From: Bacteroidales bacterium
GTDB lineage: Bacteria > Bacteroidota > Bacteroidia > Bacteroidales > UBA932
Reading direction: 5' to 3'
Assembly: GCA_017428945.1 (NCBI GenBank)
Contig: JAFRPW010000005.1
Span: 52,557-116,556 of the forward strand
DNA length: 64,000 nucleotides
The translations under genes were made by a program, and so were the position numbers. Positions 21,761-60,299 of the stretch are shown here, one piece after another; positions within the stretch are counted from its first letter, which is position 1, and the number at the start of each line of letters is the position of its first letter. A model generated the notes under the pieces. It did no database searches, had not been told where the DNA came from, and saw only the letters and a program-made list of their open reading frames with translations.

Positions 21761-21816
21761 AAGTGTTGATGCTTTATTTGGAATTGCAAATATACTAATT
21801 TTCAGCCAAAGATATA

Positions 21817-21845
21817 TTGCAAACACAAAAAAATAGCTATATTTG
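21817..21845 (+). promoter_or_regulatory. Promoter of the structured RNA / PPTase transcript
   Basis: TTG at 21817-21819, an 18-bp spacer and TATATTTG at 21838-21845 place the transcription start near 21852, just ahead of the closing stem of the structured RNA. The spacer is 1 bp shorter than the usual 19-21. Confidence 0.65.
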
Positions 21846-21851
21846 CATGTT

Positions 21852-22005
21852 AATTTTAACCAAAGACATGGAGCCTCCCAGTCAGGTCATATCTAATCAA
21901 TTAGCGGGCGTCGGATCAGACGACCCTCTGTCGCGATTATGTATACAACCCAGCTGCAACCCGGTGCCTCAAGGCATGCGGGCGGTTTCCTCCGTGTGGT
22001 TATAA
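21852..22005 (+). ncRNA. Structured RNA or 5' leader, class not recognised
   Basis: About 150 nt without a plausible gene between a promoter and the PPTase start. Three stems can be drawn: a closing stem AACC + ACATGGAG (21858-21861, 21866-21873) with CTCCGTGT + GGTT (21990-22001), interrupted by a 4-nt AAAG bulge; an internal hairpin GGGCGTC / GACG-A-CCC (21906-21926); and a hairpin CCCGGTGCC-TCAA-GGCATGCGGG (21960-21982) with a GU pair and a bulge. This is a closed multibranch fold like a riboswitch or a small regulatory RNA. I do not see consensus cores of the TPP, SAM, cobalamin, FMN or SRP families. No U-run follows, so a leader of the next gene is more likely than a free RNA. Confidence 0.5.
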
Positions 22006-22017
22006 CCCAAATGCTTA

Positions 22018-22656
22018 ATGGCACTATATTTTAAGAAAGAACTTGAAAACGAAGCCACCATCGCAGTGTGGCAGATAACTGAAACGGAAGATGAGCTCAA
22101 GGAGCTGAGCGCCACCCCCACGGACGAGATGGAAGAAATCTCGTTCATCCAGAGCGAATCCCAGCGCAAGCAGCGCCTTGCGGTGAGAGCTCTTCTGAAC
22201 ACCCTGTTTGACGAAAAAGTATACCTGAGCCACCACGACAACGGCAAACCCTATCTGGAGAACAACCCTGTAAACATCTCCATCACTCATACTGAGAAGT
22301 ACGTCGCCGTAATCCTTCACGACGAGGAAGACTGCGGCATAGACGTGGAATCCCTGGACAGGGACTTCTCCGCCGTCGAGAAAAAAGCCCTCTCGGAAGA
22401 AGAAATCGAAGACCTTGACGATGAAAAGCGCAACGAGCAGCTCGCCATCTACTGGTGCGCCAAGGAAGCCGTTTTCAAACTGCTGAGCCGTTACAGCGTA
22501 GACTTCGCGGAGCAGATAGAGATAGAGCGTTTCCACCCCCGCGGAGAAGGCGAACTGGAAGCCACCTTCGTAGACAAGGACGGTGACGAGGACGAGTTCG
22601 ACCTCGAGTACATGACCTTTGACCGCCACGTTCTTGTGTGGGTGGTGGGAGAATAG
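22018..22656 (+). CDS. 4'-phosphopantetheinyl transferase superfamily protein
   Basis: A 212-residue protein with the Sfp/AcpT signatures in order: GKPYLENN, ISITHTEKYVAV, the Mg-binding GIDVESLDRDF, and WCAKEAVFKLLSR. It moves the phosphopantetheine arm from coenzyme A to Ser of a carrier protein. It could be a second PPTase beside AcpS, serving a dedicated carrier protein; no partner gene lies nearby. The ATG at 22018 is 17 nt after the closing stem of the structured RNA, so that RNA may control it. A strong terminator follows the stop. Confidence 0.9.
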   Translation: MALYFKKELENEATIAVWQITETEDELKELSATPTDEMEEISFIQSESQRKQRLAVRALLNTLFDEKVYLSHHDNGKPYLENNPVNISITHTEKYVAVILHDEEDCGIDVESLDRDFSAVEKKALSEEEIEDLDDEKRNEQLAIYWCAKEAVFKLLSRYSVDFAEQIEIERFHPRGEGELEATFVDKDGDEDEFDLEYMTFDRHVLVWVVGE

Positions 22657-60215: not shown

Positions 60216-60299
60216 GCCCTGATGGCGGAATTGGTAGACGCGCTGGACTCAAAATCCTGTGGTAGCAATACCGTGGGGGTTCGATTCCCCCTTGGGGCA
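60216..60299 (+). tRNA. tRNA-Leu (anticodon CAA)
   Basis: An 84-nt class II tRNA. The acceptor GCCCTGA pairs with TTGGGGC, the D-arm contains GGAATTGGTAGACGC, the anticodon loop CTCAAAA gives CAA, there is a long variable arm, and the T-arm carries GGTTCGATTCC. CCA is not encoded. Confidence 0.93.

Follow-up and report, generated by a model that had tools for sequence, protein, structure and literature searches.

The enterobacterial leader MgtL, located upstream of the gene it regulates (mgtA), is a short M-E-P open reading frame (ORF) with start-proximal proline codons, and early ribosome events within it decide expression (PMC11282234). At sites in Listeria phage PSA and at CCC_UGA in Escherichia coli pheL, tRNA-Pro on CCC shifts into the +1 frame, and an early +1 shift serves as a regulatory switch in prfB (PMC5009743). 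Slips at CCC-N have been attributed to slippage of peptidyl-tRNA-Pro during a pause (PMC3617221). For tRNA-Pro(UGG), +1 shifting on CCC-N was reported to reach its greatest speed and extent at CCC-A, where Val followed in the +1 frame, and AGU appears in the E. coli rare-codon table of the same report (PMC4519876). CCC/U-C pairs are described as selected against in E. coli because they frameshift (PMC8129111).

Here we describe a bacterial locus that resembles MgtL in its short M-E-P ORF, its start-proximal proline codons and its position upstream of a presumed regulated gene. As for MgtL, early ribosome events are proposed to decide expression and, as in prfB, an early +1 shift may act as the switch. 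A first-pass annotation had presented the segment as an unclassified three-stem RNA that might sense a metabolite. Our comparison indicates that, rather than a riboswitch, this stretch of gut-bacterial DNA is probably a short leader gene that is translated and that preserves the beginning of gldE after the rest of that gene was lost.

Results

Comparison points to a translated leader upstream of the PPTase gene

The segment 21852-22005 of the window (the 64-kb stretch of DNA that was analysed) is flanked by a divergent gene of the malate/lactate-dehydrogenase family and by a gene for a 4'-phosphopantetheinyl transferase (PPTase). When 200 genomes from the genus, the window's own included, were searched for this enzyme, 182 had it. 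The features of the locus are as follows.

21817..21845, plus strand: promoter as read from the sequence, with TTG at 21817-21819, 18 nt, and TATATTTG at 21838-21845
21868..22005, plus strand: leader ORF of 45 aa (MEPPSQVISNQLAGVGSDDPLSRL...), ATG at 21868, stop TAA at 22003-22005, constrained part codons 1-24; carried by 83 of 90 upstream regions
21874..21882, plus strand: putative slippery or pausing cassette, codons 3-5, CCT CCC AGT; near-invariant in two genera
21902..21904, plus strand: stop TAG of the +1 frame, placed by sequence position; after a slip at CCC, seven further codons would be read ahead of it
21906..21926, plus strand: possible hairpin in the coding part (GGGCGUC...GACGACCC), weakly indicated
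21960..21982, plus strand: 3' hairpin CCCGGUGCC-UCAA-GGCAUGCGGG, drawn manually from 30 short-form leaders
22018..22656, plus strand: PPTase gene (PF01648, E=1.3e-10), the presumed regulated gene

We take TATATTTG to be a promoter box of the Bacteroidota type. The good promoter of the first-pass annotation thus stands as a reading of this box directly upstream of the segment, and a TAnnTTTG box precedes the leader in relatives too; a sigma-70 scan does not list the promoter. The distance from the promoter to the PPTase start at 22018 is about 150 nt, as had been described, and the gap between the end of the ORF and that start measures 12 nt rather than the 17 nt given for the end of the fold.

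Upstream regions were sampled from 90 of the 182 PPTase loci, comprising the 30 best matches (the window's among them) and 60 picked by hand from the ranking. They were searched with the pattern [ATG]TG GAR CCN CC, in which third bases are free, and the 10 regions without a match were read by eye. The pattern, opening a peptide MEPPS...(D/E)(D/E)P, was present in 80 regions; L070, L071 and L072, which have one additional codon ahead of the cassette, raise the leader count to 83. Start codons among the 80 are ATG (65), GTG (14) and TTG (1), and the (D/E)(D/E)P motif is in frame in all 80 despite differences in length. In 22 short forms of equal length, dN/dS over codons 1-24 is 0.41 in frame 0, whereas the two alternative frames give 0.89 and 1.16. 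For the ten codons after codon 24, a part that was not realigned, the frame-0 value is 0.90. In 20 congeners the ORF takes a long form of 63-70 aa that ends 11-49 nt before the PPTase gene, and here dN/dS from codon 25 to the end is 0.39-0.59 (three length groups, 12 sequences; L102, a further ORF of 61 aa, was omitted from this alignment). Through frame-0 purifying selection and in-frame changes of length, the comparison thus shows the leader ORF to be a translated one, as far as sequences can tell. The segment had been annotated as non-coding; it holds the ORF 21868-22005, with purifying selection in frame 0 up to about codon 24.

The long forms (L088:132-323 and 19 others) make up an orphan peptide family ahead of the PPTase gene, with a conserved C-terminal VCAYSARTGLSYIGT...S. 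Searches of Pfam and NCBIfam with five leader peptides, four long forms and the window's, gave no family match (best E=0.058). Across 295 genomes of the order, the long leader peptide had three matches at E<=0.01: one in the window's genome, one in a congener and one, at 0.0066 within a 285-aa frame, that was taken as chance. In the window's genome, CCTCCCAGT occurs 15 times, and by eye only the leader copy has the promoter-start context. The promoter-plus-motif pattern matches in 24 of the 295 genomes, and among 20 matches viewed in context only G000, G224 and G423 have starts that look real by eye. No leader is present in seven of the 90 regions (L098, L108, L114, L116-L118 and L120), in which the promoter box lies directly ahead of the PPTase gene (two of them read in detail), nor in G325, the single genome inspected from another genus. 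The relatives include six metagenome-assembled genomes named 'Bacteroidales bacterium', four of them from the guts of yak, deer, goat and buffalo.

The closing stem is not conserved, a 3' hairpin is

As a single sequence, 21852-22005 folds with an energy of -53.2 kcal/mol (z -3.04; 1 of 200 shuffles as good). Conservation was assessed in 30 short-form leader relatives, and the minimum-energy fold served to define the closing helices. The two helices of the reported 12-bp closing stem pair in just 44.5% and 40.8% of cells, so that this stem is not kept. Of the two internal hairpins that had been described, the middle one (21906..21926) lies in the coding part and is paired in 90.3% of cells with few changes, double changes occurring in 3 of 10 pairs. 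The 3' hairpin covaries: seven of its nine pairs changed on both sides (36 cells vs 10.7 in shuffles), and its covariation score is 0.413 compared to 0.146±0.021 after shuffling, with 0 of 500 shuffles as high. Sliding the partners destroyed the signal. RNAalifold on the full alignment assigned a covariation term of just 0.22 kcal/mol, which we think reflects misalignment of the inner part of this hairpin there. The check for compensatory changes that the first-pass annotation had called for thus comes out positive for the 3' hairpin and negative for the closing stem. As the region of the 3' hairpin is still coding in the long forms, the hairpin may have been added more recently, as a regulatory element of the short forms.

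At gathering thresholds, Rfam found nothing in the 64-kb window except a tRNA at 60216, and a local Rfam search with E up to 10 returned only SAM-II at 21799-21850, with 15.6 bits far under its cut-off of 44. Like the first-pass annotation, which could match the segment to no riboswitch core, the covariance models thus identify neither a known riboswitch nor 6S RNA. The low folding energy and the covarying 3' hairpin would suit an unclassified metabolite-sensing RNA. We nonetheless regard such an RNA as extremely improbable, because the closing stem is not conserved, the segment is coding and an Rfam match is missing. The strongest constraint falls on codons 3-5 and on the stop in the +1 frame rather than on an aptamer-like core.

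The leader resembles the start of gldE in a sister genus

In G423, which belongs to another genus of the same family, the same promoter and first codons open a 310-aa gene directly upstream of the PPTase gene. Its product matches GldE (TIGR03520, E=1.9e-58) with 198.5 bits, not reaching the curated cut-off of 376.05 bits; the match is limited to model positions 60-319 of 408, and Pfam shows CBS alone. From 25 genomes of this sister genus we took 20 loci, the other five being two full-length, one partial and two distant matches. Loci were required to contain CCNCCNAGY, a pattern that sets residues 3-5 and leaves third bases free (AGC or AGT only for Ser). All 20 loci start with TTG GAA CCT CC[C/G] AGT, are preceded at a distance of 33-36 nt by a TAnnTTTG box and are followed by a PPTase gene on the same strand 1-73 nt past the stop. 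The sister GldE proteins (L175 of G423 and L210-L229) are 309-334 aa long, short for GldE, as if the gene decays stepwise. In a profile comparison, their N-termini matched the long leader peptides over 20 columns (E=1.3e-5 for the single pair, probability 80.9).

A GldE above the TIGR03520 cut-off was found neither in the window's genome nor in 36 sampled congeners; 16 of 24 genomes of other families have one. Weaker TIGR03520 matches in congeners reach 202 and 210 bits (G013 and G029), comparable to the 198.5 bits of the sister protein. Against sister GldE, the true GldE proteins of other families scored 149-183 bits (16/16) and the CNNM-type genes of congeners 68-97 bits (7/7); a PPTase gene is present at 8 of the 16 former loci vs none of the seven latter. 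On the grounds of these low scores and of the missing PPTase genes, the gldE-like genes of congeners are taken as paralogues. Among the 11 inspected of the 16 GldE starts from other families, none begins with EPPS. Since sister gldE has the same first codons and promoter ahead of the PPTase gene, and true gldE was found neither in the window's genome nor in the 36 congeners, we take the window's leader to be the retained 5' end of a lost gldE gene. Our literature search found nothing joining gldE with a phosphopantetheinyl transferase, and nothing on a leader peptide in Cryptobacteroides, a genus name that we presume.

Codons 3-5 are fixed to the third base

In the leaders, codon 3 is CCT in 82 of 83, codon 4 is CCC in 82 of 83 and codon 5 is AGT in 83 of 83, wobble changes occurring in 2 of 83. 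Correspondingly, sister gldE has CCT in 20, CCC in 19 and AGT in 20 of 20 loci, with a wobble change in one. Where proline occurs at codon 6 it varies freely over all four codons (8, 7, 6 and 5 cases), and the proline of the DDP motif is encoded by CCT (39), CCG (39), CCC (3) or CCA (2). In 30 PPTase genes of the genus, CCT makes up 10% and CCC 64% of the Pro codons, and AGT 3% of the Ser codons. This comparison shows a fixation of wobble bases in codons 3-5 that points to a constraint beyond peptide coding.

Such constraint might also stem from an RNA binding site, for a small RNA, a protein or an anti-Shine-Dalgarno-like pairing, which coincides with the start of the ORF. The nine nucleotides CCUCCCAGU are near-invariant in 103 sequences from two genera, and ACCUCC within them resembles the 16S 3' end. 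We regard a binding site as improbable, given that the stretch is in frame and always close behind the start, at codons 3-5 or, in L070-L072, shifted by one codon, and that this reading leaves the early +1 stops described below unexplained. That the leader is an inert remnant of gldE with no function would agree with the C-terminal part being free to vary in short forms and with the absence of the leader from 7 of 90 regions. The retention of the leader in the other 83, a dN/dS of about 0.4 and the fixed wobble bases make this very improbable.

The +1 frame closes early

With the +1 codon overlapping CCT numbered 0, 81 of 82 leaders reach a +1 stop in 11 codons or fewer; both the 11-codon limit and the stop test were chosen after seeing the sequences. 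The expectation was derived from codon-matched simulations of the same peptides, with 1000 runs for each of three codon backgrounds. The first of these, built for each locus from the two longest ORFs of all six frames, may include wrong-frame ORFs and gave 39.8±4.0 of 82 (maximum 55); the 30 PPTase genes gave 51.8±3.6 (maximum 63) and three window genes 46.8±4.0 (maximum 61). Among representatives at 80% identity, the stop was present in 16 of 16 vs 7.0±1.7, 9.1±1.5 and 8.5±1.7 expected, and at 70% identity in 4 of 4 (p=0.047), the congeners being related and not independent. The +2 frame has a stop in 34 of 82 leaders, compared to 33.1 for the first background, 20.4±3.4 for the PPTase genes and 26.3±3.9 for the window genes, and in 6 of 16 representatives (7.1, 4.6 and 5.6 expected). 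With the alignment's own codon pool and a limit of 10 codons, the observed and expected shares are 97.6% and 66% for +1, and 40% and 33% for +2 (p=0.06); the mean +2 stop distance is below expectation as well. The excess of early +1 stops is firm as a property of the sequences. Its specificity for the +1 frame is weakened by the smaller +2 excess seen with the verified-gene backgrounds, and part of the effect may come from the generally AT-rich codon use of the leader.

The +1 stops are TGA (29), TAA (28) and TAG (26; n=83), spread over nine different distances; what recurs is therefore termination and not a fixed word. Among the 30 closest leaders, all 30 have a +1 stop within 11 codons, which is matched at none of 195 PPTase codon positions; within five codons the share is an unremarkable 20%. 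In sister gldE, 19 of 20 loci have a +1 stop within 11 codons (8.7±2.1 expected; representatives 5 of 6, p=0.048), and 19 of 20 within five codons, equalled at none of 280 other codon positions. The +2 stop is equally early there (19 of 20 within five codons), and frame specificity is therefore not established for gldE. Outliers are L104, with its +1 stop at 20, and the gldE locus L213, with the stop at 13 and also CCG at codon 4. A separate ORF in the +1 frame with a start of its own was considered and rejected, an upstream start being present in only 16 of 80.

A possible slippage or pausing switch

Published E. coli work predicts that CCU CCC AGU near a start slips into +1. We tentatively favour, with slightly less than even confidence, the reading that codons 3-5, on the gldE-derived leader, form a switch for the PPTase gene that works by +1 frameshifting or pausing near the start. 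A more specific version is possible, though less likely than not: a programmed +1 frameshift at codon 4 would first have served gldE, outlived it and now control the PPTase gene by way of the early stop, sensing EF-P, m1G37 of tRNA-Pro or the decoding of serine codons. Slippage itself, control of the PPTase gene and the sensed signal are all inferred from sequence.

In such a switch, ribosomes would begin at the ATG at 21868 and promptly reach CCU CCC AGU, two Pro codons followed by a rare Ser codon. On CCC, peptidyl-tRNA-Pro could pause and then move by +1 onto CCA. Ribosomes that had slipped would terminate within a few codons (in the window at TAG 21902), and unslipped ones would pass the conserved SDDPLS to about codon 24 and beyond. 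The ratio of in-frame to slipped ribosomes would set the ribosome cover of the downstream leader, and this cover the output of PPTase (in the sister genus, of GldE plus PPTase). Coupling, Rho access or the 3' hairpin are alternative routes by which slippage might reach PPTase output; because the position of the frame-0 stop varies widely in short forms, no single coupling mechanism fits all. The signal read might be the status of EF-P, of tRNA-Pro m1G37 or of seryl-tRNA, which is a guess. Suppression of +1 shifts by m1G37 is reported to be strongest at the second codon (PMC6335274); in E. coli the second codon is the most shift-prone, whereas the site here is codons 3-4.

The tRNA-Pro anticodons of the window's genome are AGG (A34), UGG and CGG (L238:1498-1573 in G000:C24, L253 and L256). 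Because GGG is absent among the tRNAs typed in this draft genome, CCC is presumably read by the AGG or UGG tRNA-Pro. A search seeded with the tRNA-Pro(AGG) gene found it in 14 of 24 congeners, and our literature search found nothing relevant on tRNAPro AGG. Fragments of the 3' end of this tRNA, in which ARAGORN finds no whole gene, are present in L302 (G000:C9:69921-69972, 96% identical) and L301 (G023:C20:16345-16407, 100% identical) and are possibly attachment-site copies of integrated elements. The window's genome also has a tmRNA gene (L246:1676-2072, tag ANNNYALAA) beside a tRNA-Ala gene.

The same codons could instead belong to an MgtL-like nascent-peptide leader without programmed slippage. 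EPP and the later DDP would pause or destabilise ribosomes, the slowness of CCU CCC AGU would add to this, and the +1 stops would guard against accidental slips. MEPPS resembles the start of MgtL, whose EPDP motif (Glu2, Asp4) gives Mg2+-dependent ribosome drop-off and whose toeprints place Pro3 in the P site, as described in PMC11282234, and PMC8129111 describes a preference for slow Pro codons close to the start of translation. The peptide constraint extends over SDDPLS, and the CNNM/CorC model of Mg/Co transport gives a match to sister GldE as well, below that model's cut-off. However, fixed wobble bases and early +1 stops are not demanded by peptide pausing alone, and MEPPS has one acidic residue compared to two in MgtL, with no second acidic residue adjoining the prolines. 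We consider this explanation somewhat unlikely.

Discussion

The idea of an undescribed regulatory element before the PPTase gene survives in altered form: the leader is probably regulatory, and a three-stem metabolite-sensing RNA is not supported. In this respect, a plausible but wrong riboswitch reading is corrected. If the switch reading is true, this would be a natural leader regulated by early +1 slippage at a Pro pair, a context that E. coli genes are reported to avoid (PMC8129111), and a natural test system for EF-P- or m1G37-dependent frame maintenance as a bacterial signal. The retention of the leader suggests that the first codons of a gene may outlive it as a regulatory element.

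Compared to the known systems, the leader differs from MgtL in its otherwise unrelated sequence, in the conservation of Pro wobble bases and of the early +1 stop, and in having a PPTase gene downstream. At PSA and pheL, a stop codon or a stimulator structure follows the shift site, whereas here the site is codon 4 and translation in the new frame would soon terminate. In prfB the shifted frame yields the functional protein, but here frame 0 is the long one. With GldE (TIGR03520), the leader shares its first codons and N-terminal peptide, both homologous to those of the sister genus's short GldE, while lacking the membrane and CBS parts.
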